Shown piece by piece: positions 36,143 through 58,245 of a DNA stretch of 64,000 nt; the first letter of the stretch is position 1; every line of letters starts with the position of its first letter. A program made the position numbers and the translations under genes. A model generated the notes under the pieces. It saw only the letters and a list, made by a program, of their open reading frames with translations, was not told the origin of the DNA and ran no database searches. Where the stretch lies: the NCBI GenBank assembly GCA_963920765.1, contig OY987245.1:5906727-5970726 (forward strand), given 5' to 3'. This DNA is from Ulota crispa (lineage: Eukaryota > Streptophyta > Bryopsida > Orthotrichales > Orthotrichaceae).

Positions 36143-37499
36143 CACCAAGAGCGCATTTAGGTTGCCCCATACTAATTTATTGACATTTTGTACTATATAA
36201 TTATTTATCAAGATTATAGTAATTTTTGTCAATAGTAATTGTGCTAAACAATGGAAGAAGCAAGCAGAGGTTGGACAGAGCAAAGAGCGCCAAAGCTAAA
36301 GAGAATGAAAGCTATAACTTTAAACAAAATCAAGAATTACTGTAGCATAAAGATAATTGCATGCATGCCCCTCCAAGTGGCCAAGGGTGAAGGCGTGTTC
36401 TCACCAAATTGTTAAACACATTTTGGTGAGGGAGATTTTGTCCTCTTCATTGACGTGGGTCTACAGAAATGGCCTTTAGATGCGTCTCTCAAACATTTGA
36501 GAGAATGCACTAGTGAAAAATGTTCTCTCAAATGCCGCATTTCCCCATTTTTAGCAACCAATGGGATGATGCTATGTGACCTCAAATGAAGGGAGTAAAC
36601 AAGTGGCCGGACCTTCTAAATGGTGGGGTTCTAAAACTTTTTTGTGCTTTTAGTTTTATTTATGGAATTTTATTCATGTTTATTCCTTTGAAGTTTATTG
36701 CCAATAAAAATGAGATTTCTGGTAACTCATCTGAAATTGTGTTCACATCGGACGGATCAATCAATGAATGTGCCAATAAGAATAGGACATAAGTCATGAG
36801 ATAACTTTGCTAAGATAAGGTAACCTAATTGTTAACCCCTAAAGGACCCTGAGGATAGAATGTGTCCTTGACCAATTTTTGAAGTTAAATAAAACCTTAT
36901 CAAGTTATTATTTTTAGTAGTCTATATTTTTGAATAAGTCTTTTTGAAGTTTAGTTTTAGCTTCAACAATCTGATTTTGCAAGTGATTGATTAAGATTTT
37001 TCTATTCAAGATTTTATGCACGGGTGTTCATTGCAATCATGACTTTATGTAGTGTTGAGGGCTCTTGGGAATGAGCCTCAAATATATTAGATCTTTGAGA
37101 AAAAATCACATTAGAAATTTATTTAAAGAAATTGTAGAGCAGATTTTGAGAAATCATCAATTGATTGAGGCTATGCATGTTAAGCCCTTAACCTCGTATT
37201 TTTTTGGTGACCAACCTTTTAAATTTGACATGTGAAAAGAAGATTGAAATATTTCAAATCACTTTCACAGTTTTAACACCCTTGTGATCAAACATTATAA
37301 TCTTTCAATCCATAAGAGATATTGTGGTGTTTTCTTTTCTAACACGTCTAGTTTGATTTTATACAGTTACAATTCAAAAAGAATTGATACAACTTATCAA
37401 AATGTTGGCTTTTTGTTCCAAATAGAGCAAATTCCTAGAAGCTCAAGAATTTCCAGGGTCCTTTACGGGGTTAAGGCAACCTAAATGCACTATTTGGTG
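36143..37499. repeat. TA1 element enlarged by two insertions
   Basis: The left end CACCAAGAGCGCATTTAGG and right end CCTAAATGCACTATTTGGTG are inverted, with TA at 37500-37501. It contains an unclassified insert (about 36387-36788) and a PB element at 36836-37470. Confidence 0.8.
36836..37470. repeat. PB element (TTAA) inserted in a TA1 element
   Basis: TTAA lies at 36832-36835 and 37471-37474. The ends CCCCTAAAGGACC and GGTCCTTTACGGGG are inverted. It is 635 bp, shorter than most PB copies, and non-coding. Confidence 0.85.
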
Positions 37500-37561
37500 T
37501 AGCTAAATTAAAAAAAGAATTGTTTAAATTAGGCAAAGTGTAGCCCCAAAAGAGAGTGGCT

Positions 37562-38437
37562 TGTACAATACCAGTTACTATTGATAGGTAAAACATGTTT
37601 TGGCATTCCAAAGAAGTTTGTATAACAAAAATTGTAAAGGTCATTTTAATCTCATATTTTTGGTATATGATTCTCATGCAATCTCGATTGACCATACCAA
37701 ACCTTGGCTACTAAAAACCAAAATCCTATTTTTGGTAAGTTGTTTTGTACCAAAATCACGGTTTTACAAGAAAGTTGATTAAAACACATTGGTGATGATT
37801 TTTTGAGATTTGATTGCATGGATAGGTAGGAGACATCCATACGCACATCTCTCCTTTTAACAAACATCTTCAAAAAGTTTAAAATTTTGTCAATAGGGAT
37901 TCAAATGCTCAAGTGATCATGACCAAATTTAGTAAAATAGATAATTTTTCATGGTAATTAAATTGTGTTATTTTACTCATATACTATTATTAAATCTATA
38001 CCTTTGAACATGATGATATGTTTATTTTGCCAAAAGCTAATTAAAAAATGGAGATATTTATCTTACTAAATTTGGTCACGATCACTTGAGCATTTGAACC
38101 TCTATTGACAAAATTTTAAACTTTTTGAAGATGTTTGTTAAAAGGAGAGATGTGCGTATGGATGTCTCCTACCTATCCATGCAATCAAATCTCAAAAAAT
38201 CATCACCAATGTGTTTTAATCAACTTTCTTGTAAAACCATGATTTTGGTACAAAACAACTTACCAAAAATAGGATTTTGGTTTTTAGTAGCTAAGATTTG
38301 ATATGGTCAATCGAGATTGCATGAGAATCATATACCAAAAATATGAGATTAAAATGACCTTTACAATTTTTGTTATACAAACTTCTTTGGAATGCCAAAA
38401 TAGGTTCTACTTATCAATACCAACTGGTATTATACAT
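37562..38437. repeat. FB foldback element with arms of about 390 bp
   Basis: The left arm (37562-37955) and right arm (38047-38437) are reverse complements with few mismatches, separated by a loop of about 90 bp. Landmarks include ACAATTTTTGTTATACAAAC and GGATAGGTAGGAGACATCC with their complements. It is non-coding. Arms are related to 50690-51650 and 21220-21480. Confidence 0.9.
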
Positions 38438-38700
38438 AGGGGGGTGGTGGAGAGCATCTAGAAACATATGATGGGGTTTTGTAAAGGGAGGGAGGGTAGG
38501 GGGCGCGGGGAAGTGGATTTTCCTCGAGAGTTGTAGCCTTCCAGTGCCCGCCCAGGCCTACATGACTTGCCAACCATTCCTGACTTGGGGACACGCCACC
38601 CTAGCCTTCCCCAGGGTTGAGGTAGATGGTGCTAGAAGCATCTCGATTAACCCACAAGGGTACATTAACACCAAACGGAGAAATATGAAATTTATGAGGT
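38438..38700. other. GC-rich patch of unknown origin
   Basis: GGGAGGGAGGGTAGGGGGCG and CCTTCCCCAGGGTTGAGG-type sequence stands out from the AT-rich flanks. The frame at 38544-38744 shows no family I know. It may be a fragment of an old element or gene. Confidence 0.35.
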
Positions 38701-38793
38701 TAAATTTCACAATTTTATTGAATGTTTGCCTTCTTCACTTTTAATCTCAAAGGAAATATTAAAACCGACTGGGATGATATGAAACCTGTTAAG

Positions 38794-39155
38794 AGGCAGT
38801 TCAAATTATGTTCAAAGACCCATCTCTACAAGTCACATTTACAAGTCTCATCTTAAGGTTAGATCTCATTTTTGTTGGATTATTAAAGGTAAGCTAAAGA
38901 AAGCTATAAATATGTTACGCAAAAATATTAGTGGGACTTGGATTACATACTGGGTATAGCAAAATGATTGATCTAAACCTTGAGTGAACCCTCGCTTTCT
39001 TTGACACCAAAATTTTCAAAAAGTGTTATCATGTAAAGTAAAACACAATAAATTGGATGTGGAATTTGGAACATAGTGTGACATGCTAAGTCCCAACTTT
39101 TGGCTTTACACCAATCAAATTCTCAAATCTTAGTGGGATGTGAGATATTTGTGAA
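38794..39155. repeat. MITE family GG, diverged copy
   Basis: GGCAGTTCAAATTATGTTC and CCCATCTCTACAAGT at the left and TAGTGGGATGTGAGAT at the right correspond to the GG copies at 4685-5379 and 19525. Confidence 0.6.
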
Positions 39156-39561
39156 AAGCTCCAAAGATTTCAAACTCTCATTGAGTCTTTGCACAAGGGG
39201 GTTTAATCTTGACCTTGATCCAATGTGGTATATGACACATCGGGCAATTTGTACCTTAAAAGTTGATTCCTAACTAAAGGACGTGAAGCATTTGTTAGGA
39301 AATCTACACTAAATAGTATGTTTAGGTTACTTTACCTTGGAAAGTTGCCTCATGCCTCATTGCTTGACCACTTGCAAAGTTGGAGGTGCATGCAACTTTC
39401 TAATTATTAGGGTTTCACATGATTTATGATGTCAACAACTTTAGTTTGTTTTTTGACAAAATTGTTGATGTTGCCAAGTCCCAATTGTTATTAAAAATAT
39501 GTTTATTGCATAAGTATTGATGAAAATTAGTGCAATATCAGTAAGTATTTCTATAGTTTAA

Positions 39562-39755
39562 CCCCTAAAGGACCAAGCCTGTTTTTTTTGTGAAAATCAC
39601 AGAAAATTGCCACTTTTGGGGGAATAAGTACAGAGGTAGGAAATTTTATTTTTGAAAATTCAACCATAGGATCTTGCCCTAGACTATGGAAGATTCTTGT
39701 GGGAAAAAAACCAACTCATTATAGAAATAGAGGAGTGAAATATTGACATTTGACG

Positions 39756-39837
<82 letters not shown>

Positions 39838-41311
39838 CTGCCCAAAATTTTCAAAAACCTTTGATGGCTCCAATATCAAAAAAATTGCTCTACGCAAAGT
39901 TGAGGTTTATTTCTTCCATGTAGAAGACCAAGTTAGGTAAGTGTGAGAGAATTTGCATATACACTAGGCAAGATTGGAGGATTTATGCAAAATTGAGAAA
40001 TATGAACTACTTTGATCCAAATGGTGTAAACCAAGGAATCTTAGTCTACTACAACTTGGAAAAAAAAAGTCAAAAACTCAACTAAAGCACCAAATTTTAC
40101 AAGGGGCAAAAGTAATGGAGGTTTGGGAGTCCCATACCTACCTGCAAACAAAAACTTCCCACTCATCAATCATAATTGAATGGTTCAAAGCTTTCCATGT
40201 AAATAAAAGTCTAAAGAATCAATTTCAGACTTCTTTTTTTTAAATGCAAATTTAAAAAAAAAAAAATTGGATTGCCTGGATTGCCTGCTCTCCTCCATTT
40301 TTCAAAAATTCATGCATAACTTCTTCAATAAATGTAGGAATGAAGAAAAGATTAGATGTGCACGTACATCTTTGAATTCCCCACCAACCTCAAAAGTATC
40401 AAATATTTATAAATGTTGGTTTAACCCCTAAATCCCTAGGGCCTTTATTTTCTCAAAAGACACTCAAAACTGCCATCCCTATTGCAAAGAGTAAAAAAGT
40501 TTGAAAATTAGTATTTTTTTGTATTTAGCCATATGATCTTGTACTAGATTAGTATAAGAATGTGGGGAAAATATTTAAAATCTTTGACCGCGCAGATTGC
40601 AAGATATTTGCATCTAAAGTGTAAAAACAAACTTTTTTGCACCTTGCATGACTAGATTCTTTGACTATGAACTTTTTTAAATGTTTGCACCATAGAGTTT
40701 TGAGGTTTATTTTTTATGGTGGGAAATTGAGTTGAAAATCTTTGGAAAAAAATCAAAACAAAAAATACTTGGTTTTCATTCTTTTAAAAAACACTAGGTG
40801 GAAGAAGGTATGAGATTGAACAAAAACTTAAATTGATAATAACCTTGCAATGGAATTGAAACGCAATAATCCCAATGGTGAGATTGTTCTAGAAAGCAAG
40901 CTTCACCCTCTCCAACAATTTTTTTGAAAAAATGTTATACTTGCATTCAAAAATGAAGTTTATAAGTTACTTTTTCAAGAAGATGCTTGAATTTCCCGAA
41001 AAACAAGATTGTCCATAACTTTCTCATAACTTGTCCAAATGGAATGAATCAAAGCTTCAGATGTAGACAAAACTATAACCTACAAGAAAAAAAATTGGAA
41101 AAAAATTAAAGTTTTTGTAAAATTTTGTTTGCTGCCCAATCTCCATAAATTTGTGCTTATCTAAGCATATCTTTTGCTTTTGGGCATAGATTGGAATAAA
41201 AATTATATTCCCCAAAAGCTAATGCATTTTCCTATCTTCAAAAAAAATTCAAGAAACCAGAACAAAAATTGAGGCTATAGGTACCTGCCCAAAATCTCAA
41301 GGATTTAGGGG
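39562..41311. repeat. Two adjoining PB elements, both reversed
   Basis: The first (39562-40420) starts TTAA-CCCCTAAAGGACCAAG but its other end is lost. The second (40425-41311, 887 bp) has TTAA at 40421-40424 and 41312-41315 with ends CCCCTAAATCCCTAGG and CAAGGATTTAGGGG. The second matches the reverse complement of the PB copy at 41935-42886. Confidence 0.8.
39758..39834 (+). repeat. (AT)n microsatellite inside a PB element
   Basis: About 38 AT units without interruption. Confidence 0.95.
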
Positions 41312-41425
41312 TTAATCATATGTATATACCTGAGGTTCATTTGTTCTCAAGGGGACAGTTGGTATTTTAAGGGTTTAAATGTTAAGAAATTAATGTGGAG
41401 CAACCTAAATGCACTATTTACTGTA

Positions 41426-41716
41426 CACCAAATAGTGCATTTAGGTTGCCTCAACAATTAGGTTGCCTTACCTTGGAAAGTTACCTCATGATCCACCACT
41501 TGCCTACTTGGAAATGCATGCAATTCTTTATATATTTAGATTTCACCTAATTTACAACTTAGATATTGCTAGTTTATCTTTCTACAGCTTTTAGTAGTTG
41601 CCAAGTCTTTAAAATAATATTATTACAATAATTTTAGCTAAAAATTACTGTAACAACAGAAATAGTGCAAAATGTGGAGAAATTAGTATGGGGCAACCTA
41701 AATGCACTATTTGGTG
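41426..41716. repeat. TA1 element no. 2, intact, array centre
   Basis: A 291-bp element with ends CACCAAATAGTGCATTTAGG and CCTAAATGCACTATTTGGTG. It is separated from its two neighbours only by TA (41424-41425 and 41717-41718). Confidence 0.9.
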
Positions 41717-41934
41717 TACACCAAATGGTGCATTTAGGTTGCCTTGTAAATTAGGTTGCCTTACTCTAGAAGCTACTTCATGACTCATGGTTTGGCCACT
41801 AGAAGACTCATGAAGCTCTTTAGATTTTAAGATTTCACATGATTTATCACATGAACATCACTAATTTGTCTTTCTACAATTGTATTCTTATTGCCTAGGC
41901 CTTTAAAAGTTGCTTATTGCATTACCCCGTAAAG

Positions 41935-42886
41935 GACCATTGTCCCTTTGGGGGACAAATGGAATTTCGGGCAGGTACCTACGGCCTCAATTTTTGTTTT
42001 AATTTTTTGAAACTTTTTTTGAAGATAGGAAAATGCATTAGCTTTTGGGGAATATAATTTTTATTCCAATTGACGCCAGGGAGCCAAAGTTATGCCCAAA
42101 TAAGCACAAATTTGGGGACTAGGGGCAGCAAAAAAAAATTTATAAAAACTTGAAAAAAAATTAATTTCTTTTTTCTCATAGATTATATCTTTATCTACTT
42201 CTGGAGCTTTGATTCATTCCATTTGGACTAGTTATGAGAAAGTTATGGACTAGTTATGAGAAAGATATGGACTAGTTATGAGAAAGTTATGGACAATCTT
42301 GTTTTTCGGGCAACTCAATCATCTTCTTGAAAAAATAACTTATAAACTTCACTTTTGAATGTAGATTTAACATTTTTTCAAAAAAAATTGTTGGAGAGGG
42401 TGAAGTTTGCTTTCTAGAACAATCTCACCATTGGGATTATTGCGTTTCAATTCTATTGCAGGGTTATTAGCAATTTAAGTTTTTCTTCAATCTCATACCT
42501 TCCTCTACCTAATGTTTTTTTAAAGAATGAAAATTAAGTATTCTTTTTTGAATTTTTTTCCCAAGATTCCCAACTCAACTTCCCACCATGCAAAAATAGA
42601 ATTCCAAACTCTGTGGTGCAAAAAATTTAAGTTAAAAATGTTCAAAGTTAAAATCTAGTCAAGCAAGGTGCAAAAAAAGTTGTTTTCTACTTTTTAAATG
42701 CAAATATCTTCCAATCTATGCAGTCAAAGTTCTTGAGTTTTGTATGACACATTCTTATAGTAGTCTAGCACAAGATCCTACGGTCAGATATGCAAAATGC
42801 CTGATTTTCAAACTTTTTTACTCTTTGCCATAGAGGTGGCAGTTTTGAGTGTCTTTTGACAAATGAAGGTCATGATCCTTTAGGGG
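41935..42886. repeat. PB element (TTAA) inserted in TA1 no. 3
   Basis: The left end CCCCGTAAAGGACCATTGTC is preceded by TTA (one A lost). The right end is GATCCTTTAGGGG-TTAA. It is 952 bp and non-coding. It includes a 22-bp triplication, GGACTAGTTATGAGAAAGTTAT, split over 42229-42296. Confidence 0.85.
42229..42296 (+). repeat. 22-bp tandem repeat, three copies
   Basis: Units begin GGACTAGTTATGAGAAAG and repeat with a single base change, inside a PB element whose relatives have one copy. Confidence 0.85.
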
Positions 42887-42989
42887 TTAATTATTATTGC
42901 TAAAATTTCCCGTAGCAGTAACAAATAGTTAAATAGTGTAAAATGTCAAGAAATTAGTGTGGGGCAACCTAAATGCACGATTTGGTGTA

Positions 42990-43345
42990 CTGTAGTTAAT
43001 TGAGGTTCTGGATGAACATGTATTGGGGATGGTACTATCCACTGTTTTTCCGTCGTTTTACGATATGCATAAGGGGCGTGTCGCCAGGCCACGAATAATA
43101 AGTTCTAAAAAATACCCCCAAATAACAAACCCAGCATCTAATATTAATGCCCGGTGTTGCTGCACACCCGGCCAGTCGGCCACCCAGCCAAGCCGCCAAG
43201 GGGGGCTGGTCGAGTACTCGAGTGGCGGGGCTAGCAGCAGTGAGCATTGTTGCCCGGCGTTTTGAGGGCTGATGACGTAGGCTAACCGCCGAAGCTGCGT
43301 CACTGGATGACCTGGATGAGCTTATATAATTCTGGCACATTTGTC
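42990..43345. other. GC-rich island of unknown nature
   Basis: Roughly 43070-43310 is strongly GC-rich (GCCAGTCGGCCACCCAGCC, GGCGGGGCTAGCAGCAGTG) amid AT-rich repeats. Overlapping ORFs exist on both strands, but none resembles a known family. It may be a gene fragment carried by, or left between, elements. Confidence 0.4.
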
Positions 43346-43704
43346 ATCCATCCATATCACTAATAACAAAAGGATATGGGCGCCACTTAACGATCTTGCA
43401 AGATCTGTTCAGGAGCCATTGACCCTCCTGAAAAAGGGCATGAGATCCCTCAATTTTCTTTAAATTTGTCATGACAACTTTACATTAAAATATTCATATC
43501 CTTTATTTGACCCTATCTAGTTTGGTAATCTCAAGTTTTTGCAATAAAGTAGTCCTTCGTTCCTTCTATAATTGTCATTTCCTAGAGCTTTTGGCTGAAT
43601 TAGCACAATCAAAACTTGCCGCTGCTACAATTTGCTGGGATTGTCCTGGTATTACGGAAGCCTGATTGAAGGCTCATACGTGTATCTCTTAGAACTCTTG
43701 GTAA
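43346..43704. other. Unclassified stretch
   Basis: No gene or bounded repeat is seen. Confidence 0.5.
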
Positions 43705-43713
43705 TAATTATTA

Positions 43714-44127
43714 AGGAATTGATATGCGTACCACACCTTCTTGACTATCTCACCACACCCCAGGGTAAGTTTTAGATTTCTACCATCAAAAAGTTGAATC
43801 TGAGAATTTGAAATTCAGATTTGGACTTAGAGACTTGGATTTTGTCTAGAACCATTAAAAAAAAAACTTTGTAATTGAACAACACCCACTGAAAAAGTTT
43901 AGCTCGAGGGAAAAGTATTATTTTTACTTTTGTTTATAAAAAAGATAAGCTCTTTCATTGGGTGTTGTTCAATTAGAACCTTTTTTGTGATTATAAACAA
44001 ATTACAATCTCTTAGTCCAAATTTGAATTCCAAATTCTCAAATTCAACTTTTTGATGGTAGAAATCTAAAATTTACCCCAAGGTGTGGTGGGATAGTTAA
44101 GAAGGTGTGGTGTGCATATCAATTCCC
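43714..44127. repeat. M9 palindromic MITE with exact 9-bp duplication, copy 2
   Basis: A 414-bp palindrome. The ends are AGGAATTGATATGCGTACC and GTGTGCATATCAATTCCC. Perfect direct repeats TAATTATTA lie at 43705-43713 and 44128-44136. The central hairpin carries TTGAACAACACCCACTGAAA and its complement. Confidence 0.9.
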
Positions 44128-44136
44128 TAATTATTA

Positions 44137-44437
44137 TGCCCCCTTATGTTTATGTATGGGTGATGGGTCTCAATAGGGAATTGCAAACGGAACAACCTAA
44201 ATTGCTAACAAAACACCCCCTTTGAGCATGAAATTTGATAACTCAATGCTGTTCTTGATTGGTCCGTCATTCATTCAACGAAGGCATTCCATCATTCATT
44301 CAATGAAGGCATTAGCACCTCCTTGAAAGAAAACATGATAAATATAAATTTTTGTTGAAATATTATTGCACTAATACTAATTTATAATGTATTTTTGCTC
44401 TAAGTAACTCAAAAGTTATATGTTTTTAGTTTCAAAT
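44137..44437. other. AT-rich stretch
   Basis: A short direct repeat CATTCATTCAACGAAGGCATT / CATTCATTCAATGAAGGCATT occurs near 44268-44311. Nothing else is seen. Confidence 0.5.
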
Positions 44438-44441
44438 TTAA

Positions 44442-46188
44442 CCCCTAAAGGACCAAGCCATTTTTTTGTGAAAAACATAGAAAATTGCCACTTTTGGGAA
44501 GCAAGTACAATGGTAAGAAAAAATAATTTTTTACAAAAATTCAACCGTAAGATACAATAAATTACAAGAGGTACACGCGGTAAAAAATTAGCTCAATCTA
44601 CACAAAAATGAGAGATATTTACATCTCAATTGTGGAAAAAAAAGAATTGTTGCTGCCCAAAAATTTTAGACGACTTTGACCACTCTTAGATTAAAAAAAT
44701 TACTCTACACAAACTTGAGGTTTATTTTTCCCATGTAGGAGATCAAGTTAGGTATGTGTGGGAGAGTTTTCAAATCAATTGGAACTATACAACACATGGG
44801 AAAAAATAGTAAGTAAAAAGAAGTAGAGAATGAGTCAAATCACTAAATTGTTAAGAATTTAATTATTAAAATGAAAAATGCAAATCCCAACGGTGATAAT
44901 GCTATGATAACCCCCTAGGATCTTGCCTTAGACTAGAAGAGTTACATGTGGGAAAAAAATCAGGTCATTCTAGATGGAGATGAGGGAGATGTTTACATCT
45001 AAAGTGAAAAAAATGGTTTTTTTTTGTGCTATCCAAAAAATTTAGAAGCCTTTGACCACTCTTATAACAAAAAAATTGCTCTACACAAAGTTGAGGTTTA
45101 TTTTTTCCACATAAAAGACCAAGTTAGGCATGAGTGGGAGAATTTTCAAATCAACTGGAACTATATATCACATGGAAATAAAACCGTAAGTAAAAAGAAG
45201 TAGAGAATGAGTCAAATAGCTGAATTGTTAAAAATTTAACTATTGAATTAAAAAATGAAAATCCCAAATGTTATAATGTTGTGATAAACAATCTACTTCC
45301 TTTGGTTTAATTTTTATTCCAAAATATTGAAAATTGTGGAAAAGAAAGGATTTCAAAGTTTATTTTAGAGTAGAGGATCCGTAACTATCCACAAACTAAA
45401 ACATCACATTACTTTCATCTCATTGATTGAAATAGAATTTTTCAAAGCTTCCCATATATTCAAAAATCTAAACAACCAATTTCTGAATTTTATTTCTAAA
45501 AAATACAAAATTTAAAAAAGTTTTTAGGCTGCCCGAATTGCCCTCTCTTCCTTGGGCAGCATAAATTATTGCATAACTTCTTTGTCAAATGTCAAAGTGA
45601 GGAAAAAATTTGATGCCCACATTAATTTTTTGAATTCCTCATCTTCCATAAACGTTTCAAAAAATTACACACATTAGTTTAGCCATAGGTGCATACCCAA
45701 AATCTAATTTGTTCCCCCCAAGGGACAACAGTCCTTTAGGGGATAAACAATCTACATCCTTTGGTTTTGTTTTTTTTCCAAAATAATGAAAATTGAGTAA
45801 AATAAAAGACTTCAAAGTTTATTTTAGAGTAGAGAATCTAGAATTGCCCGTAAACAAAAACTCCTCATAACTTTCATCTCATTTATCAAAATTGAATAAT
45901 TCAAAGCTCTCCACGTCTATATAAGTCTAAAGGACCTATTTCAAATTTTTATTTGAAAAAATGAAACTTTGAAAGAAGTTTTTGGTTACCCGGGGAGCAG
46001 CATTTTCTAGGTTTTCATGCATAACTTCTTCAATAGATGTCAGAATGAAGAAAAAATTACATTCCCACATAGATCTTTGAATTCGTCACCTTCCATAAAA
46101 GTTTCGAAAAATCACGCAAAGTAATTTAGCCATAGGTACATGCCCAAAATCCCATTTGTCCCTCAAAGAGACAATGATCCTTTAGGGG
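44442..46188. repeat. Composite PB element with internal duplications
   Basis: TTAA lies at 44438-44441 and 46189-46192. The ends CCCCTAAAGGACCAAGCC and AATGATCCTTTAGGGG are inverted. At 1747 bp it is twice the usual PB length because the left half (about 44460-44900 versus 44930-45300) and right half (about 45290-45740 versus 45755-46188) are each present twice, with a surviving inner terminus CAGTCCTTTAGGGG near 45731. Confidence 0.75.
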
Positions 46189-46591: not shown

Positions 46592-47514
46592 CCCGTAAAG
46601 GACCATTGTCCCTTTGGGAGAGAGGTTGGATTTCGGCATGTACCTATAGCTAAACTACTTTGTGTAATTTTTTGAAATTTTTATTGCAGGTGTAGAATCC
46701 AAAAATGTATGTGGGCATCAAATTTTTTCTTCATTCCAACATTTGATGAAGAAGTATGCATGAATTTATGAAAATTTGGGGAAGACTGCTTGTCTGGGTA
46801 GCCAAATTTTTATTTTGAATTTGTATTTTAAAAAAATAAAAACTTGAAATTGGTTCTTTAGATTTTTTTAATATGTGAGAAGCTTTGAATCATTCAATTT
46901 TAATCAATGAGATGAAAGTTATGAGGAAGTTTTGTTTTTGGACAGTTATGGATTCTCTACTCTAAAATAAATTTTGAGGTCCTTTATTTTACTCAATTTT
47001 AAATATTTTGGAACAAAAAACCAAAGGAAATAGATTATTTATCACAATATTATAACCGTTGGGATATGCATTTTTCATTTCAATAATTTAATACTTAACA
47101 ATTTGGTGTTTTGACTCATCCTTTACTTTGTTTTACTTACTATTTTTTTCTCATGTGTTGTATAGATCCAATTGATTTGAAAATTCTCCCACACATACCT
47201 AACTTGATCTCCTACATGAAAAATTTAAAAAGCAACTTTGGTAGAGCAATTTTTTTGTTATAAGAGTGTTCAAAGGCTTTTGAAGTTTTTGGGCAGCATG
47301 GAAAAAACTTTTTTCTTCACTTTAGATGTAAATATCTCACTCCTCTTTATCTAGAATGAGCTTATTTTTTTTCCACAAATACCTCTTCTAGTTTGGAGCA
47401 AAATTCTTCTATTGAATTTACCAAAAACAAAACATAAAATATTTTTTACTAAACCTCCTAAAAGTGGCAGTTTTTAGTGATTTTCACATGAAAAGGGGCT
47501 TGGTCCTTTAGGGG
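46592..47514. repeat. PB element
   Basis: TTAA lies at 46588-46591 and 47515-47518. The ends CCCGTAAAGGACCATTGTCC and GCTTGGTCCTTTAGGGG are inverted. It is 923 bp and non-coding. Confidence 0.88.
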
Positions 47515-47518: not shown

Positions 47519-48269
47519 GTGGGCTTCATTAGGATAGTATGATTTTAGACCATGTACGTTTAGATGCTCAGATACTGAATTGAGTTTGGTCATTTTGCAC
47601 TTGGGCAAATATCATGGACTTGGCTCAAGTGTATTTGGAAATTTTAATAATAATAAAATATACAGAATTTTCAAGGAGTTTACTGTAGATGTTATGGGGT
47701 ATATAGGAAAGAATGATTAAAAATATACTTTAAAAAAAAATCAAATATGTTTTTGAAATCTATACTACTAAGTGGGAGGCACTTCACGCCCTTTTCTAGA
47801 ATCTTCTAGAATTTTTAAATTACAAAAGGTCAACAATCCTTGGGGAACCTCACATTAAGGTTGTTGAGCTTCTTTCATACAAATCCTTGAGCTTCCTTCA
47901 TACAAATCCTTGAGCTTCCTTCATACAAATCCTTGAGCTTCCTTCATAAAAATTGATTGATCTTTTTCTCAAGAGGAGAAGAAACACCAAAAACTATCTA
48001 TCTATCTATTTATACCACTAAGTGGGGGGATTTCCTTGAGTGCTCCCTTTTCTAAAACCTCCTAGAAGTTTTTTTTGTAAGCTGAAGCAACAAAGGACGC
48101 GCAAGATATAGAACACCAAGTGCCCTCCAATCATATCATTTTCCAAAATGTTCTAGAACTTTTTAGTGGAAGTTGAAACAATAAGCCATGCTCCAAATAG
48201 AAAACATCAAACCCCTTCCAACCATGTGCTAGAAATTTAATAAAATGTCAAACGCCTCCTAGCAAAGTA
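47519..48269. other. AT-rich stretch with a 23-bp tandem repeat
   Basis: At 47866-47952 a 23-bp unit CTTGAGCTTCCTTCATAC... recurs about four times. Two phrases CTAAGTGGG(A/G)GG occur at 47768 and 48020. Nothing coding is seen. Confidence 0.6.
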
Positions 48270-48273
48270 TTAA

Positions 48274-49216
48274 CCTCTAAAGGCCCATTGTCCCCTTAGG
48301 GAACAAATGGGATTTTGGGCAAGTACTTGTGGCTAAACTACTTTGCATGATTTATTGAAACTTTTGTTGAAGATGGGGAATTATAAGATATGTGTGGGAA
48401 TGTAATTTTTCCTTCATTTTGACAATTATTGAAGAAGTTATGCATGAATAACTGAAAAATGGGGAGAATCAGGCAGCAAAAAAAAAATTGCAACCTTTTT
48501 AAATAAAATTTCAAAATTGGTTCTTTAAATTTTTGTGTATTTGGGAAGCTTTGGATCATTCAATTCTGATAAATGAGATGAAAGTTATGAGAAGTCTTAG
48601 TTTGCAGGTAGGTATGGGACTCCCAAACCTCCATTCCTTTTCCCCCTTGTAAAACTTGTTGCTTTACTTTTTTGAGCTCTTTGTGTATTTGTTTTTTGAC
48701 TTTTTTTTTTTTGCAAGTTGTAGCAGAGTAAGATTCCTTGGTTTTCACCATTTGGATCAAAGTAATTTGGGCTTTTGAATTTTACATAAATCCTCCAATT
48801 TTGCCTAGTATATATGCAAATTTCATGACCTTACGACATTGCAGGATTTTACAAAGTATGATCCACACCTCCGTTTCATTTGAAAATTCTCCCACATTTA
48901 CCTAACTTGGTCTTCTACATGGGAAAAATAAAGCTCAACTTTGCATGGAGCAATTTTTTTGATATAGGAGCCGTCAAAGGCTTCTGAAATTTTTGGGCAG
49001 TATAGAAACTAATTTTTGTTTTCACTTCAGATGTCAATATCTCACTCCTCTACAACTAAAATGCGCTAAGTTTTTTCCCACAAGTACCTCCCATAGTCTA
49101 GGGCAAGATTTTCCGGTTGGATTTCCAAAGAAAAGAAAAAATTACATTTCTCCTCACTCCTCCAAAAGTGGCAGTTTTGAGTGATTTTCACAAAAAGGGG
49201 CTTGGGCCTTTAGGGG
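48274..49216. repeat. PB element
   Basis: TTAA lies at 48270-48273 and 49217-49220. The ends CCTCTAAAGGCCCATTGTCC and GCTTGGGCCTTTAGGGG are inverted. It is 943 bp and non-coding. Confidence 0.88.
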
Positions 49217-49397
49217 TTAACGAGTAGCATTGTGATGAAGCCATGCCATTGGTGTTTTTGGTCTCACCAAAATGATGGTATGTGAGGGTTAGATTCTAGA
49301 CCAATTGTGAGATTGATTTTTGTACAACACATCTAGATTGAATTCTAGACCAATTGAATTGAGATATCAATTTTTTGTAAAGTTGAATGTTGTATTA

Positions 49398-49783
49398 GAG
49401 CATCTCCACTGGCTGACTCTAGCCGGAGCGATGGCGAGGCCAGAAGGCGATTTTAAAATTTTTGATCTTCACTAGTGTCTCGCCCCGCTCAATAACTCGC
49501 CAACCTAGCCAAGCAAGGCTCCGGGGACGGGGAGCTCCCGGGCTGGAAGAACTATGTAGTGCGCTGATCTTCTGGTGATTACCTGAAAGTATGTGCTTGA
49601 CGACGCAATGTTGGGAAAAAGCGATTTGTCGAGACTCTCATTCTGGATCAGAACTCCCGCTCACGAGGTCTAGCGTGTTTGAACCGGTGGAGATCAAGAC
49701 ACGGGCTTGGCCACATTTGCCTTCCTGGGACCTGTCAACAAGCTTTGGCGAGTCTGTAATTGCCCAGTCAGGTAGAAATGCTC
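49398..49783. repeat. PIF/Harbinger-like MITE, TTA duplication
   Basis: The ends GAGCATCTCCACTGGCTGAC and GTCAGGTAGAAATGCTC are imperfectly inverted, with TTA at 49395-49397 and 49784-49786. It is 386 bp and GC-richer than its surroundings. GAGCATCTCCA ends with TWA duplications are widespread in plant MITEs of this superfamily. Confidence 0.75.
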
Positions 49784-49786
49784 TTA

Positions 49787-50470
49787 CCCATACATGTCCA
49801 ACTCATGCAAAACGTGTGCCTATATACTAGTCATATCTATTTGTGGGAAACGGATTAATGTAAAGAGCATTTTGGCCAAGAGCAAACTCAAGGAAATGTG
49901 TTATATTATAGTTTATCTGAACTATTTAATATATGTAAAATGCGGTAAGAGAAATAACACAAAATCAGTTCCTAAAGATTGCAATTTTCAGAATTTTCTT
50001 ATTGTACAAAGTCCTTGAAGTGATTCAGTAAGGCCACACCTTTATTATGCTATTTCTTCTTTCCAATTTTAGAAACCCTAATAGAGCATCAGGAGTCATT
50101 TTTTACTTATATTTATATACATATACACATCTTTGTTCTGGTTTTTATTTGAGTTTTGTATGTTCAAATTTAAGTAATTTTGATCATGGCGTTGTAGCAG
50201 CAAATACACTTTGTTATGATAAATAAGATTTAATTCATTTTTATATTTTCACATATTAAAATAAAAGTACGCATAGTGCAAATGCAATATCCTTTTGCTA
50301 AGAAATTAAAATATTGCTTTTTATTTGCAAGTTTTGTAAAGTTTAAGAAGTGCTTCCATGGACTAATCATTTAAAATGAATTCACTTCTTCATCTATTTT
50401 AAAAGAGAGTTTCATTTTTGCATAATATTTGAATCAATTGGAATGTGACCAACAAGAAGAATTATCATTT
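49787..50470. other. AT-rich stretch, nothing recognised
   Basis: No gene or bounded repeat is seen. Confidence 0.5.
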
Positions 50471-50476
50471 GTAGTA

Positions 50477-50685
50477 CTCCCTCCGTCCCAAAATGATCTG
50501 CATGTTACACAAAATGTTATAGATTAAGCTCAATAATAACCATTTTTCAAAATTTTTTGACCTATGAATAGAGTTTGATGTCCTATAGTTCTGAGATTTT
50601 GAGTTTCAAATCAACTTTCAAAATGTGGTTTCAAAGTGCTTGAAAATTGAATTAGTGAGGCATTTTTGAAGAGCACCGGTTGCAA
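50477..50685. repeat. Left half of a Stowaway-like MITE
   Basis: TA-CTCCCTCCGTCCCAAAATGA is the canonical Stowaway terminus. The body matches 10704-10910 to GAAGAGCACCGGT. No right end follows; an FB foldback begins where it stops. Confidence 0.8.
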
Positions 50686-50689
50686 CATA

Positions 50690-51650
50690 GTCAACTATAT
50701 ATCGGCCTCCAACAAAAATTGTCCGGCCAACTATTCCATTGAGAGGTCATGTCATTTTGACGTGAAAATGAGGTCAATTGGCCTTTTTTTTTTCTTCTAT
50801 TTTGTATATTTCATTCATACCCCAATTCCAACCAAGCATACCAAATTTCAACCCCAAAATATCAAAATCAAAATTTTGATAAATTGTTTTGTGTCACAAA
50901 TCATGGTTTTACATGGTTTTACAAGAAAATTGATTGAAAAACATTGATGATGAATTTTGGAGATTTGATTGCATGGGTATATAGGTAGCATCCATATGCA
51001 CATCCTTATGCAAATCTTCCTTGCTAAAAAGAAACCCCTTAAGTAAAACAATCTTGATCTTTGAAGGGTTTAGTGTGACCCATAATATGTCCAAATTTTG
51101 TAAAATAGATACTTTTAATTTTTAGTTAGCTTTTCACCAAAGAAACACAACAACGTGTTCAAAGGTACAAACTTAGTCACAATGTATGAGTCAAATAGCA
51201 AAATTTAATTATCACAAGAAAATATCTATTTTACAAAATTTGGACATATGACGGGTCACACTAAACCCTTCAAAGATCAAGTTTGTTTTACTTAAAGGGT
51301 TTTTTTTAGCATGGAATATTTGCATAAGGATGTGCATATGGATGCTACCTATATACCCATGCAATCAAATCTCCAAAATTCATCATCAATGTTTTTCAAT
51401 CAATTTTCTTGTAAAACCATGATTTGTGACACAAAACAATTTATCAAATTTTGATTTTGATATTTTGGGGTTGAAATTTGGTATGCTTGGTTGGAATTGG
51501 GGTATGAATGAAATATACAAAATAGAAGGAAAAAAAAAAAGGCCAATTGACCTCATTTTCATGTCAAAATGACATGACCTCTCAATGGAATATTAAGTTG
51601 GCCCGACAATCTTTGTTGGAGGCTGCTATACTTTGACTATTATATCTCCA
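50690..51650. repeat. FB foldback element with arms of more than 400 bp
   Basis: The left arm (about 50690-51115) and right arm (about 51225-51650) are near-perfect reverse complements around a loop of about 110 bp. Landmarks include AAATTGATTGAAAAACATTG and CATATGCACATCCTTATGCA with their complements. It is non-coding. Confidence 0.9.
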
Positions 51651-51852
51651 AAACAATGCGGTCAAAAGTTCTGTAAATTTCAAATCATGTGCATCAAACA
51701 CCCTTTTTACTATTTCAACAATGAATCCTCCCTGATCTAAGTTCCTAGCTTGGGGCGTACAATGTTTTTGAACACGGTCCCTCTTGACCTCATTTCCTTG
51801 ATTCAACTGTGGGCACTTAGGGGTTAAACACTGGAACCAACTTAATGATTGA

Positions 51853-52163
51853 ATTTCAAAAAAATTCAATGTATATCCTTCAAATTTCCAACATTTGTAT
51901 AGATGCCCTTGGCTTTTCAAAAATTGCACAAATACGTTTGACATACTCCTCATTTGATGCGCTTCCACCATGATCATTAGCCATGATGCCCAATTCTTGC
52001 AGCGCAGTAGGCTCAAAGCAAGTGACATGCACTTTTGATAATTGTGGAGAAGGGTATTTCTCCAATTATGAAAGAATGTCAAACGTGTTAGTGCAATTTC
52101 TGAAAAAGTAAGGGCATTTTTACAAATATAGCAAATTTTAGTTGTATCCATTAAAAATTTCCC
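51853..52163. repeat. Inverted-repeat element, family J, copy 2
   Basis: ATTCAATGTATATCCTTC on the left and GTTGTATCCATTAAAAATTT on the right. Inner blocks GGCTTTTCAAAAATTGCACA and complement correspond to 24452-24770. Confidence 0.6.
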
Positions 52164-52169
52164 TTGATT

Positions 52170-53238
52170 TGTTAGTGTATGTTTAGTCGTCTTTAAACCT
52201 TAAAGGTTAAGAGATTGTCATACAAAGTAATCAACATTTGAAAAGGTTAAGTTCATTGGATATTCTTCATACAAAAGCATTAATATGATGAAAGAATTAG
52301 GGAATTTCTAAATCCACCATAGTTCTTGCTAAATCCACCACATTGCACCATGTTTATGAGTTCCTTAATGAAAAAAAGAATAAATTTTGTTTTTATTGTA
52401 TAACCATTTAATGATGATGACAAGCATACTCCATTGTTCCTTTTCCTTATCCTCAATCTCTTCTTGTTCTTTTTTGTGTTTTTCTTGTCTACCCTTCCCT
52501 TTCTTTTTTCTTTTATTTGGCTTAACATCCATAACTTAGAGTATACATAATCCTAACATGAGATAATCATTAAATAAATGTAAAATTCCCCTTCATCTAT
52601 TTATGAAACTCCTAAACATGGTGCGATGTGGTCGATGTGGTGTATTTAGCAATTCTCAAGAATTAACCCATTATACATTTACTATACAGAGTAATGAACA
52701 TTGTAAAAGGATTCACTCATTAAATGATTGTCATTCAAGGTACTTTCATAGTGAAGAAGGGGAGAATTAAAACACTCATGCTTAGAAAAGCCTCCGTGGT
52801 CCCTTATCTCAAAGCCTTTCAGTCCTACTTAATTTTATGACATTATCATTACATACCTTCATGAGTGTTTAGTTAATGAGCACAACAATTAAAGAATGTT
52901 TCAATCTTGCCATAAAGAATCAATAAGTTGTTCTTATTAATTGGGCTTTGGATGCCTGCAGCCCTACACCAGACAAGCCTTAAAACTATAAATTGATCCT
53001 AAAATTAAACCGAGGTTGAATATGGCCCAGGCAGCGTCAGAATTAATGCCGGATGAGGACTTTACTCTTTGTTTTATTTAGTTAACGGTCTTAAAATATA
53101 AAGTTACAAAATTTTATTTACATTAATAGAAAATTAGATAAGTATTGACGCCATTATTACTGTAATTCTTTCAATGCTACTAATGGTTATTGCAGAAATA
53201 TGATTTCTATAAGAAATCGTCAATCAAAGGTAACTGCA
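52170..53238. other. AT-rich stretch, nothing recognised
   Basis: No gene or bounded repeat is seen. Confidence 0.5.
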
Positions 53239-53242
53239 TTAA

Positions 53243-54106
53243 CCCCTAGGGATAAAATGGATTTTGGGCAGACTTTTTCTATTGAATTTTTTTTATCGAG
53301 TTATTTGAATTTTATCTGTGAGATAAAGTTTTGCAAGGGCTACGTCACAGTACAATTTTTGTTGAAATTGGATTCACGGTTCAAAAGACATGAGTGCTTT
53401 ATGTGCTTTTTTTGTTCAAGGGCAAGCTAGGCATGCCAAATTTTGTTGACTTCTCTCAAGGGCCACCAATGAAGGCATGGCCCTTCATTAGAATTTACCA
53501 AAAGTAATATTGTATTAGACAAATTTATTTTTGTATTTGATAAATACATTAATTTTTGAATTGTAATAGCTATTAAAGGTTATCATTTTTATTCATTTTT
53601 TTGTGGTTATTAAAGAAGTCAAACTCTTTCAATCTACCATTTGGATTTTTTTATTTTCAAATTATTCCTCAGAACTTCAGTTTTTTAAAAATCCAAGTGT
53701 TATAGAAATTTCAAGCACATGCTTGTCATGCAAGGTCATGTAGGGTGTATTTATGCCTTTGATGACCTTGAAAATTGGTGGAGATATGCCTAACATGATT
53801 TAGAGCATGTTAGTGAACTCTTTACAACACCCATGTTGCAAAACATATCCACCACATGTGATCAAAGGGACTTGAAAATTTCAAGCAAAGATCAAAAAAA
53901 CTATTTACCCCAACTTCAAACGTTCACACCTCTCAATCCGTAGAGTCAAACCTCATGAAAATTTCACTTTGGCTCCTTGCATAAGTCCTATGCAATATTG
54001 TATAATTAGACTTGTAAACATTTGAAAAAACATCTTCTTAAGATCAAAACACTAAAAATGGCAGTTTTTTGTGTTTCCAGAAAAATCGGACTTGGGCCTT
54101 GAGGTG
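53243..54106. repeat. PB-like element, diverged
   Basis: TTAA lies at 53239-53242 and 54107-54110. The left end CCCCTAGGGATAAAATGG and right end CTTGGGCCTTGAGGTG are partly inverted. The right subterminal GGCAGTTTTTTGTG matches other PB copies. It is 864 bp. Confidence 0.65.
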
Positions 54107-54362
54107 TTAAAGAAAAACAGTTTTATTTTAGGATTCACTATTTTGTATAGATCATTTACAAGTTTTATTTAAAACTTTTCTATGTTTTGAATTATTATAA
54201 AGGAGAACAACAACAATTTTGTAATAGCAAGTTTACTGATCAAGGTCTTATTTGTAAGTATCTTATGACTTCATCAAAGAATTATTTGTTGTACATTAAT
54301 TTTTAGCTTGACCCATTGAAGAGTACATTGTGACATGCTTTTAGAAGAATGAAGTACTTTAA

Positions 54363-54433
54363 CCCCTAAATGTGTAAGGCATTAAATTTTGGTGTAAAAA
54401 CCACCAAATTTTGGTGCCTTGGGCATTTAAAGG
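54363..54433. repeat. Very small TTAA-flanked palindrome
   Basis: TTAA lies at 54359-54362 and 54434-54437. It is 71 bp. The ends CCCCTAAATGTGTAAGGC and CTTGGGCATTTAAAGG are inverted, with an inner hairpin CCAAATTTTGGTG. Confidence 0.7.
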
Positions 54434-54453
54434 TTAATGTTGCTTGCTCTTAA

Positions 54454-55100
54454 GAGCATTTCCACCATGGGCTTCCCTATCCCTATCCCTATTTGGATGA
54501 AAAGAGAGCAAAGATGTGAACAGGGAAAGGCAAGCCCCACTAGTTCTTCCCCATAAAGGAGTTTTTTTCTTCATAATTACTAAAATAAGTTGGGACTTGG
54601 GAGAGGTGGGCCAAGAGAGAAGCTAGGGTCAATTTCCATGGGGACCGGAACTGGAGGGGGCCTCCAGGCTGACCCGTCACAGTCAAGGAAAAACCCTGAA
54701 ATCTTTATCGGACATAGAATTTAGAAAAGAACCTCCAAACAAGGGTTCAGGCCTCTAGGATTGCAAGTCAACTTTTGCAGAATCGGAGGCTAGAGGTCTA
54801 GCCCGGATCCCTCCAGCCCCCCTATGGAAATTGGCTCTTAGGAATGAAAAGGAGAGGAAAAGTGGGCCAAGAGAAGAAATAGGAGTGAAAGGGATAATAA
54901 ATTGCACTTTTTTGAGAAAAAAGAGAATACACTTTATTATAACTGAGTTCCTTATATGACCTCTTGCTTAGGGAATTGGGGCTCACTCTCATCCAAATTC
55001 TTTGAATATTTGGGAATAAAGGCTTTTAGTGGGGGTATCCTTCCAAATGCAGATGATTTTCATCCAAATACAGATAGGGAAGCCCCTGGTGGAGATGCTC
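54454..55100. repeat. PIF/Harbinger-like MITE, TAA duplication
   Basis: The ends GAGCATTTCCACCATGGGC and CCCCTGGTGGAGATGCTC are inverted, with TAA at 54451-54453 and 55101-55103. It is 647 bp because another element is nested at 54624-54838. Confidence 0.8.
54624..54838. repeat. MITE nested in the PIF/Harbinger-like element
   Basis: AGGGTCAATTTCCATGGGG on the left and CCCCTATGGAAATTGGCTC on the right form inverted ends around about 215 bp of GC-rich sequence. Confidence 0.6.
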
Positions 55101-55103
55101 TAA

Positions 55104-57312
55104 TCCCAAGGTATCGTGTATTTCAAGAAGTCTGTTGTTCATAATGCATCTTTACAAAACATTGAATTAAGAAATGTCACGTCATAGAAGTTCAAAGGCT
55201 AAAGGAATTAGGCAATTATGCCCCCTTTCTACTTATTTCCAACAAATTTCTTTACCAAATCTCCAAAATAAATAATACTTCGTTCATTTGTGGTTGTCAT
55301 TGTGAGCAATAAAAAGTGATTTAATTAAAGTCTATAAATCAGTATATTACAGAGTTTAGAATCACTATTTTTATTCAATTGGATGAAGCCACTCACTCAA
55401 TATTGCCTTATATTTTATAATATTGATTATGAATTTAAACTTCTATTCTTTAGAACTCTGTTTTTACTTTGAGATCTCCAGCATAATTCATGGTCTTTGA
55501 CCCCAATAAATATAGTCCAAAGGTTTTTCTAAAACCCTTACACGTGATATTCAAAATTCTCCATTAAAAACATAAGTTTGAAACTATTAACACCATAAGT
55601 TTGAAATTCTCTACTAACACAATAAGTTTAAAATTCTCTGTTGTAAAGCATTGAGGGTGTTTATCTGTCACCCAAATTTCAAAATGGGGGAGGAGAGGGA
55701 GAAGAAAAGATGGGGGAGAGGAAGGTGAAAAATCATTGGAAAGTAAGAGAAACCCCGCAAAGAGTATGCAAGGCCTACTTGTTTTAATTGGATGTGGACT
55801 GTCGCAAAGTTCAAACTAACAATAATAAAAAAAAATGGCAAATCCCTAGTTGGATTTACAAAAGCATTGGAAAATTTCTTATTATTTTGCCTAAACACTT
55901 GGAGACCTCATGATATGATGTTTTGCCTTACCTTGTCCAAACATTGAGAGATTTTCCAATGTTATGCATAATCCGATACACATAGCCCATAAATACATGA
56001 ATAATCTATACTCATGACATCTTTGCCACGCCTTTTCAAATGAAGTAACAACTCAACTTACAATCTATTTGCAATGCAAAAAGGAATATTTAGCACGTAG
56101 GACAAAATAAAATGCCTTGAGTCCAAAGACAATTATTTTGTTTGAGGCCTTCTAATTTGACATGTAATAGATAAAAATGCGTTTCAAATTTTTGTTTCAC
56201 ATAATATATTCCTTGTTTTGAATCGAACAAGTATGCTTTGCATAGGCTTTGCGCCATGTCTCTATTAATTTCTTGTAACTTTTTAGATGACTTTTGACCC
56301 TCTCTTGTCCTATATTTTCCTCTCCTTCCCCTCTTCACTTTCCTTTTACTTTTCACCCTCCCTTAGATTTCAAATTTTGGGTGACGCATACACACCCACT
56401 GCTTAACACTCAATTCTTTATAATATATTATCTCAAACTTATAAAAATATCATTCCAATGACTTTTTGCTACCTCAGGTGCATTTTCCTCTATCTTCCCC
56501 CTCTCTATTAAAACTGGTGATATTAGTAAAAAAACATATCATGAGACAAACGGGCAACCCACTCTCTCTCTATATATATACTAGTACGTCTTGTGTGTCA
56601 TATGGACACACTTTGGAAAACAACCCATTAAATGCAATAAATTATTTATTTATTTTTAACGAACATTTCCTTGCATTAAAGCGTTATTTGTTTTGTACCC
56701 ACAAAAAAAATATAACCACATAGTAAAAGGAACAATATTTGTTGTTTTTTACCCAAGAAATTTTTTACACATGCCATTTTTTACCCATGCAGCAAGTTTT
56801 TCCATATGCAAGTTTTTTTACCCATAAGTTTCCATTATGTTGCAACTAATATAAACCGACCAACAACCTAATCTATTACATGTATACATAAAAATATTAT
56901 GTGTTGTTTACCTACACAAACATTTTACTCTTTGAGTTTTACCCACATAGTAATCATTCACATTATTATTTTATATTTTATATTTATTACCCACGCATTA
57001 AACCCAACTCATGCAGTTGGTTTTGCATTTTTACCATCACATCAGGTTTTTAATAATAAAAACCCGGGCATTGCTGGAGTGCCACGTACCCCTATCAAAC
57101 CAACAGATAAAATTGATACCACGTTTATAATAAACAAATGCAGATCTATTATTAGTTTTTATTTGTATTTTTATTTTTATATAGCACGTTGCAATGAGGT
57201 CAAAGACTCTTGAGTGCAACACTAAATTAAGGCTTTTGAACTAAAGTATTTGATGTAAGAAGTAAGAAATACATTCTCTTCCCTTTGGAGCACTAAGCGA
57301 ATTAAGAGCTAA
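55104..57312. other. AT-rich stretch, nothing coding
   Basis: It contains a three-fold degenerate repeat of AACA(C)ATAAGTTTGAAAtTCT near 55568-55640 and scattered TTTTTTACCCA(C/T)(G/A) phrases at 56740-57000. No gene was recognised. Confidence 0.5.
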
Positions 57313-57316
57313 TTAA

Positions 57317-58245
57317 CCCCTAAAGGACCAACTGTCCCCTCGAGGACCAAATGGACCTCAAGCACGTATCTTTGACTAAACCGATTTTTATGAATTTTTG
57401 AAACTTTTGAGGTTAGTGAGGAATTCAAAGATGTACGTGCACATCTAATTTTTTCTTCATTCCAACATATCTTGAAGAAGTTATGCATGAATTTTTGCAA
57501 AATAGGGGAGGGTGAGCACTCCGGGCATCCCAAATACCTTTTTAAAAATTGCAATTTTTAAAAATAAAAATCTGAAATTGATTCTTTAGACTTTTATTCA
57601 CATGGAAAGATTTGAACCATTCAATTCTAACTGATGAGTGAGAAATTTTCGTTGGCGGGTAGGTATGGGACACTCAAACCTCCATTCCTACTGCCCCTTG
57701 TAAAATTTGGTGCTTTAGTTTTTAATTTTTAATTCTTTTTCCAAGTTATAGTAGACTAAGATTCCTTGGTTTTCACTATTTGGATAAAAGTAACTCATAT
57801 TTATCAATTTTACATAAATCCTCCAATCTTGCCTAGTGTATATGCAAATTTCATGACCTTTTGGCACTGCAGGATTTTACAAAGTATGATTCACCCCTCC
57901 AATTCATTTGAAAATTCTCCCACACATACCTAACTTGGTCTTTTATATGGAAGAAGTAAACCTCAACTTTGAGTAGAGCAATTTTTTTGATATAGGAGGG
58001 GTCAAAGGCTTCTAAAATTTTGGACAGCACAGAAAAAAACTTTTTGTTTCATGTCAGATGTCAATATCTCACTCTTGTATATCTGAAATGAGCTGATTTT
58101 TTTCCCACACGTACCTCCCATAGTCTAGGGCAAGATTCTATGATTGAATTTTCAAAAAACCTTTTTCCCTACCATTGTACTTGACCCTCCAAAAGTGGCA
58201 AATTTCATTGATTTTCATGGAAAAAAGGGCTTGATCCTTTAGAGG
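57317..58245. repeat. PB element
   Basis: TTAA lies at 57313-57316 and 58246-58249. The ends CCCCTAAAGGACCAACTGTC and GCTTGATCCTTTAGAGG are inverted. It is 929 bp and non-coding. Confidence 0.88.

Follow-up and report, generated by a model that had tools for sequence, protein, structure and literature searches.

What are the short, gene-less elements that crowd one stretch of the genome of the moss Ulota crispa, and what moved them? The window analysed here, the whole 64,000-nucleotide stretch C4:5906727-5970726 of a 274.8-Mb genome in 157 contigs, contains ten elements that lie at TTAA and have CCC..GGG tips; two are nested inside other copies. An earlier note had read them as a plant piggyBac system of miniature inverted-repeat transposable elements (MITEs). 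The piggyBac superfamily has been studied mostly in animals and is used as a gene tool. Very probably, the window elements represent non-autonomous moss piggyBac transposons, which have kept two ends and no gene and were mobilised by piggyBac elements of near-identical tips, because an element on contig C7 with near-identical tips encloses a protein matching piggyBac. The superfamily is already known; the interest lies in the moss host, the scale and the pattern of an end palindrome.

All eight full elements of the earlier note are present with CCC../..GGG tips, and its count of at least nine copies, whose shared ends are real, becomes ten once nested copies are separated. On the plus strand, 36836..37470 (635 bp), 46592..47514 (923 bp), 48274..49216 (943 bp), 53243..54106 (864 bp) and 57317..58245 (929 bp) have TTAA on both sides, as had been claimed for every full element; 41926..42886 (961 bp, its start previously placed at 41935) is flanked by TTAC on the left and TTAA on the right. 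The copy at 39562, formerly taken as truncated, is an untruncated minus-strand element (39562..41374, about 922 bp without its insert, TTAA on both sides) split by another minus-strand element of 887 bp (40425..41311) that itself sits between two TTAA; the outer copy resumes about 60 bp past 41311, and its right tip reads GGGT, with the last base set by eye. On the same strand, 44442..46188 had been counted as a single copy. The outer copy is real (about 911 bp, TTAA on both sides), and a second element of 832 bp (44911..45742, minus strand) lies in its middle, with its ATAA site duplicated on both sides.

The window tips vary around CCCCTAAAGGACC; the exact 17-mer tip TTAACCCCTAAAGGACC stands at 5 of the 20 ends of the ten elements, and the others are variants. 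A strict scan for TTAA-CCC..GGG-TTAA pairs found 24 in the window vs none in each of ten first-order Markov resamplings; it catches six of the ten elements (36836, 39562, 44911 and 53243 are under threshold), and the remaining 18 pairs are cross-pairs between copies or unrelated inverted repeats. The longest ATG frame among 14 copies of the short elements is 73 amino acids, which rules out a coding role and agrees with the earlier statement that no transposase lies inside. The elements are thus short, have no transposase open reading frame (ORF) and keep the ends of a transposase-bearing element, as non-autonomous derivatives do, with most interiors unmatched. As for the term MITE, it holds in that they are non-autonomous and non-coding; they are not classical short fold-back MITEs, being mostly ~0.9 kb with inverted tips of 13-16 bp. 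Two further right-hand tips at TTAA (51812-51823 and 54433; GGCACTTAGGGG and the reverse complement CCTTTAAATGCCC) have no clear left partner, and a perfect (AT)38 run occupies 39759-39834, within the element 39562-41374.

Genome-wide, the 13-mer CCCCTAAAGGACC occurs at 9,597 places, vs 3 for the reversed control. TTAA directly precedes 8,154 of these exact tips (85%), and TTAA or a tetramer one base off precedes 9,270 (97%), which allays the earlier note's concern that copies elsewhere might lack the TTAA duplication. Single-base departures number 325, 319, 186 and 286 at positions 1 to 4, so that all four positions are similarly conserved. On C1 and C2, where coverage of the tips was complete, 17 pairs of ends facing each other at 250-1,300 bases adjoin tetramers other than TTAA, and ten of these have an identical tetramer on both sides (TTAG in five, CTAA in three, TTAT in two), vs a mean of 3.9 expected by permutation (6 of 20,000 permutations reach 10). 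The inner element 44911-45742 has ATAA twice, vs once in unfilled relatives, and 40425-41311 has TTAA on both sides, vs a single TTAG in the sister copy 57317. Because both sides agree in these two nested insertions and in ten of the 17 pairs, the target duplication is four bases.

Insect piggyBac in human cells used TTAA at 23,026 of 23,417 sites, with CTAA (110), TTAG (100), ATAA (30), TCAA (29), TTGA (28), GTTA (25) and TTAT (18) among the others (PMC3499496), and the moss tetramers TTAG, CTAA and TTAT are all among the off-target sites in Table 1 of that source. Pokey of Daphnia is reported to use TTAA in 88%, TTAT in 5.9%, ATAA in 5.1% and CTAA in 0.85% of cases (PMC3849761). The moss elements choose their targets in the same manner as insect piggyBac and Pokey. 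Among 88 places of this first swarm, 13 of 17 pairs span 895-955 bp. Because 8,154 exact ends lie at TTAA and 5 of 20 window ends are exact, we estimate, roughly, a total of the order of 10^4 elements, which would make up a few per cent of the genome; average density may be lower than in the window.

A profile search of the genome with PF13843 gave at least 120 matches (116 of 528 candidates scored; best 1.3e-73), vs none in any of 14 control genomes. Twenty of the 120 were taken with 3-kb flanks, and in nine of these loci the transposase is enclosed by a pair of TTAA-CCC type tips, giving elements of 5.0-6.3 kb that fall into eight families, L039 and L048 belonging together; three of the nine depart from TTAA on one side (L047, L048 and L052), and L056 has a second, weaker pair. 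At a tenth locus (L041, on C7) the left tip was reached after 3 kb more sequence, and no tip pair around the transposase was resolved at the remaining ten of the 20. The C7 element (C7:11814408-11822432) is 8,025 bp long, contains a PF13843 transposase and an inserted 918-bp element, and has the tips TTAA-CCCCTAAAAGCCC and CCCCTAAAGGCCC-TTAA, which are near-identical, not identical, to those of the short elements.

Similarity between short copies and this element extends inward from the tips. The first 48 bp of 48274-49216 match it at 82% and the last 53 bp at 85%, and positions 7-91 and 290-862 of 53243-54106 match its ends at 72-73%. A genome search with the 3' half of the C7 element gave 41 scored matches (40 of 1,328 candidates scored): C7 itself, a short inverted self-match, a relative on C10 that has a transposase, and a further 38 confined to the final 807 bp, most of them with a start either about 588 or about 650 bp away from the C7 tip. 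The C10 locus resembles the C7 element over the transposase and over the final 0.8 kb, as far as a tip that reads CTTCTAAAGGACC and adjoins TTAT (the 0.95 kb between transposase and 3' end there was left unread). Because this locus resembles C7 at both the transposase and the end, the shared 3' end is most likely part of the element that has the transposase rather than an unrelated insertion; the long 3' end common to the 53243 subfamily fits an origin by internal deletion.

The transposase itself is recognisably of piggyBac type. The C7-type domain matches insect piggyBac (PDB 6x67, 2e-21) and piggyBat (5.5e-17), and in the region of the DDD triad it aligns with solved piggyBac at the motifs IDE, DNFF and GVDxxDQ, which we take to carry the catalytic Asp residues. 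In a tree of the 30 best domain matches and the relic in the window (27066-32464, described below), the C7 type groups with L025, L026, L034 and L038, and the relic type with L012 and L022, each with support of 100/100; 30 of these 31 domains have in-frame stops, and ten of the 120 listed PF13843 matches are stop-free, several of them partial. By eye, a Cys/His cluster is seen at the C-terminus of several moss transposases, in several frames.

At L061 (1329-1435) a C7-type tip is followed, across TTAT, by 73% similarity to the L042-type end, and two families may share one target site there. At L052 (5861-6825) a transposase-bearing piggyBac element has a short element next to its end, inserted right in the target tetramer (TCAA / TTAA). 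L049 and L050 have stop-free transposase frames of 389 and 476 amino acids with no tip pair found around them (one possible right tip at L050), and may be either remnants or co-opted genes.

A further piggyBac feature, seen in most of the families, is a palindrome just inside the inverted repeat, which, read inward from the transposase-upstream tip, is TTGTCCCTTTGGGGACAA in C7, TGAGGACACATTGTGTCCTCA in L056 and CGCCATTTTATGGCG in L046. Tips were picked via TTAA and the first 14 bases, not via the palindrome, and the C7 left tip via likeness to the short elements. Pooled over nine families, complementarity peaks at 0.556 at centre 25.0, vs a mean over centres of 0.248, a value reached at any centre by none of 1,000 shuffles and none of 2,000 sets of internal stretches. 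Eight of the nine families score at least 0.56 at 24.5 or 25.0 in the pooled analysis (L047 does not). Taken one by one, six have their best hairpin centred at 24.5-25 (F41, L039, L043, L046, L052 and L056), with p at or below 0.05 in all but L052 (0.185), and the window relic has a hairpin at 15-35 (p 0.025). The nine families' 3' ends show no peak like the palindrome of the insect piggyBac right end.

Ten of 14 short elements score at least 0.56 at 24-25 (not 40425, 46592, 53243 and L001). Their pooled 5' values, 0.468 at bp 25 and 0.444 at bp 24 in a profile made without a shuffle control and oriented, in part by eye, after their resemblance to the C7 ends, are hardly above the highest 3' value (0.452 at bp 33). 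The insect piggyBac palindrome is located in bp 17-33, with the groove's centre near bp 25, and C-terminal domains bind it as a dimer (PMC7351741); in piggyBat it is described on the left end alone (PMC11707139). The moss left-end palindrome sits where insect piggyBac binds its C-terminal domain, and by analogy we infer the same binding in the moss.

Taken together, the features shared with piggyBac are the four-base duplication of TTAA, tips of the CC[C/T]T type (mutated in some copies) with inverted repeats in the range of 12-19 bp given for the superfamily in PMC2872659, a DDE_Tnp_1_7 transposase inside an element with near-identical tips (a decayed copy), the aligned DDD triad region, and a palindrome on the left end in the region of bp 17-33, with predicted C-terminal binding; its pooled peak lies at bp 25, and six of the nine families show it clearly when taken singly. 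The assignment to piggyBac made in the earlier note is borne out by the tips, the duplication and the PF13843 element, and its plant host by TTTAGGG telomere repeats and an AUX/IAA gene: a TTTAGGG array, found by pattern, lies at one end of C1 (C1:1-400, at the other end, is N), and an AUX/IAA match in two pieces lies at one locus.

Three other origins might have left similar traces. PIF/Harbinger elements of the Tourist-like kind, whose MITEs are common in plants, would duplicate three bases, TWA, and lie in TTAA by chance, since TTA and TAA are contained in it. The four TTAA positions are kept to a similar degree, the outer base is duplicated in the TTAG, CTAA and TTAT pairs, and the partner is a PF13843 element, so that we regard this origin as extremely improbable, though no search aimed at Harbinger families was made; neither the departure counts nor the non-TTAA pairs show the three-base duplication. 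The same two results rule out the two-base TA duplication of a Tc1/mariner (Stowaway-like) element with tips ACCCC..GGGGT, an origin to which we give equally little credence, though no Tc1/mariner transposase with these tips was sought. TTAA can formally be read as T-TA-A, and departures are rarest at inner position 3 (186), yet they are as common at position 2 (319) as at position 1 (325), conservation at the outer positions is about equal to that of the inner TA, the outer bases are duplicated as well, and the partner is again piggyBac. Kolobok and Sola3 likewise use TTAA, and one of them could have made the copies if the piggyBac likeness of the tips were fortuitous. However, similarity to an element with a piggyBac transposase covers the tips, about 50 bp per end and, for one subfamily, some 580 bp at the 3' end, and the palindrome at bp 24-25 is common to most short elements. 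Although no search for Kolobok or Sola transposases was made, this leaves such an origin highly improbable, if marginally less so than the other two. A partner from another superfamily had been named in the earlier note as the finding that would count against piggyBac; the transposase-bearing element found with matching tips is piggyBac.

Closer to hand is a fourth candidate, the transposase relic about 6 kb from the copies, which the earlier note had cited in support of its reading. It is a decayed minus-strand element of 5,399 bp (27066..32464; tips CCCCTAAATGCCC and TCCCTAATGCCC), flanked on both sides by CTAA in its own reading (TTAG on the plus strand), with a PF13843 domain (29330..30427, minus strand, E 3.8e-60) that has three in-frame stops. 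Its transposase is indeed piggyBac; it belongs to a sister family with tips CCCCTAAATGCC, whose member L012 shares 47% protein identity with the C7 type. The tip TTAACCCCTAAATGCC of this family occurs at 4,241 exact places in the genome, vs none for the reversed control. Among its first 100 places, 21 pairs lie less than 2 kb apart, 13 of 629-656 bp, four of 64-71 bp and four of other lengths. All four 64-71-bp copies have both tips and TTAA on both sides, and by eye three of them have a perfect CACC..GGTG at bp 18-32 of one end, the fourth CATC..GGTG. That this family, and not one of C7 type, moved the copies in the window is very unlikely: the two sets of tips share CCCCTAAA, the relic is the nearest transposase and cross-mobilisation is possible, but the sister family has its own swarm with different length classes, and the end similarity of the short copies goes to C7, whereas their similarity to the relic is limited to a run within one copy. 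Its own tips and swarm of 4,241 ends, together with the end similarity to C7, are grounds for rejecting the relic as direct partner. Inside the relic, 28065-28477 is a 413-bp fold-back with nested arms of 63, 48, 42 and 34 nt that are 87-98% complementary.

Several observations weigh against the reading of the elements as non-autonomous piggyBac transposons with a C7-type partner, or against parts of it. The C7 partner is decayed, with two in-frame TGA codons, the nested insert and a microsatellite; no intact autonomous copy has been shown, and the transposase matches seen with wider flanks are those 20 alone. Short copies outside the 53243 subfamily match C7 over about 40-60 bp per end, and the interiors of the common ~0.92-kb copies resemble it in scattered short stretches only. 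Seven of the 17 non-TTAA end pairs disagree in their tetramers, probably through later mutation. With regard to the palindrome, L042 has its best hairpin elsewhere (23-40), L044 and L047 have none, L048, the second copy of L039's family, gives p 0.215, and L043 and L052 are related and hence not independent. Pfam names no C-terminal cluster in the transposases, with none of five pieces above cut-off and one showing weak C1 and B-box matches. Finally, relatives of 46592-47514 (40 of 8,816 candidates scored) comprise 39 long matches 83-87% identical and two fragments at 78 and 84%, a divergence that points to old activity. In another piggyBac family, two full-length copies share 90% identity. 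Because the scored relatives are 83-87% and the full-length pair 90% identical, the degree of divergence suggests movement in the past rather than the present.

How the non-autonomous piggyBac elements may have moved can be outlined by analogy with insect piggyBac. Full-length piggyBac elements with near-identical tips, of which C7:11814408-11822432 would be one decayed copy, would have supplied the cognate transposase and mobilised the short copies in trans. A transposase dimer would bind the tips and, at the transposase-upstream end, would grip with its C-terminal domain the palindrome whose centre is near bp 25; the element would then be excised and joined into TTAA or, rarely, CTAA, TTAG, ATAA or TTAT, and the four target bases would be duplicated on joining. 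Such cut-and-paste movement would belong to past activity.

On a broader view, the moss may harbour a deep, home-grown piggyBac radiation made up of nine families or more, whose domains share 30-55% identity with the C7 type and whose tips, and in most cases palindrome letters at about bp 25, are peculiar to each. Transposase and palindrome would have co-diverged in it as lock and key, and two families or more would have given rise to swarms with thousands of ends, the smallest elements, 64-71 bp with hardly anything besides two ends, marking the minimum DNA needed. We put this forward tentatively, at somewhat less than an even chance. Thousands of piggyBac ends from many families in one moss form a natural series of end-plus-transposase pairs, which makes two questions testable, namely how end palindrome and C-terminal domain change jointly and what the minimum length of a piggyBac element is. 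Their presence also implies that moss repeat annotation may miss a sizeable share of DNA transposons.

Among known systems, Wuneng and Microuli come from rice. They are MITE-like with TTAA duplications, a feature shared with the moss elements, but the description in PMC2872659 does not link them to a piggyBac transposase. The Daphnia elements Pokey and mPok resemble the moss system in having a full-length element of ~5.1 kb and ~750-bp deletion derivatives that share only the ends, in the predominance of TTAA (88%) over minor TTAT, ATAA and CTAA, and in copies inserted in TTAA beside another copy; unlike it, they have an animal host, 90-110 mPok copies vs thousands of exact ends, and the ribosomal DNA site of Pokey (PMC3849761). 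The CMITEs of Acropora corals are likewise short piggyBac MITEs with TTAA, CC[C/T]T tips and several families, one of which is tied to a piggyBac element, but they are ~100 bp long with one conserved interior, vs the moss classes of ~0.92 and ~0.64 kb and the copies of 64-71 bp (PMC2872659). Trichoplusia ni piggyBac has the same TTAA target, a DDD transposase (6x67) and a left-end palindrome at bp 17-33; its palindrome is also found on the right end, whereas the moss has no 3' peak, and the moss letters differ between families (PMC7351741). In piggyBat of Myotis there is likewise a left-end-only palindrome, three bases past a motif at bp 11-16 (P1 at about 19-32, reckoned from P3 at 107-120 and a period of 44); piggyBat has three motif/palindrome repeats and one is seen in the moss (PMC11707139).

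A literature search for piggyBac in plants, mosses and bryophytes returned no moss case, a weak negative given that most subscription papers fall outside its coverage. In the accessible text of a plant paper, piggyBac is named in a list or as a tool (PMC10794571); a fern repeat table has a trace piggyBac row of 1,230 copies and 122 kb (PMC6890710); another source states in passing that piggyBac was isolated from insects, fungi and plants (PMC10813416); and the part of a moss paper that was available has merely the word 'piggybacking' (PMC10619864). The Ulota crispa genome note gives 275.00 Mb, 408 scaffolds and 11 chromosomes, and its main text is without 'repeat' or 'transpos' (PMC11803377).

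Elsewhere in the window, tRNA and Rfam scans (the latter at gathering threshold) found nothing, and Pfam searches of ten additional ORFs matched glycosyl hydrolase family 9 alone, in two of the ten. Three stretches on the plus strand matching this family (13273-16355) are probably the exons of one gene, and a GC-rich (55%) ORF with a RAP domain lies on the minus strand at 1636-2988.

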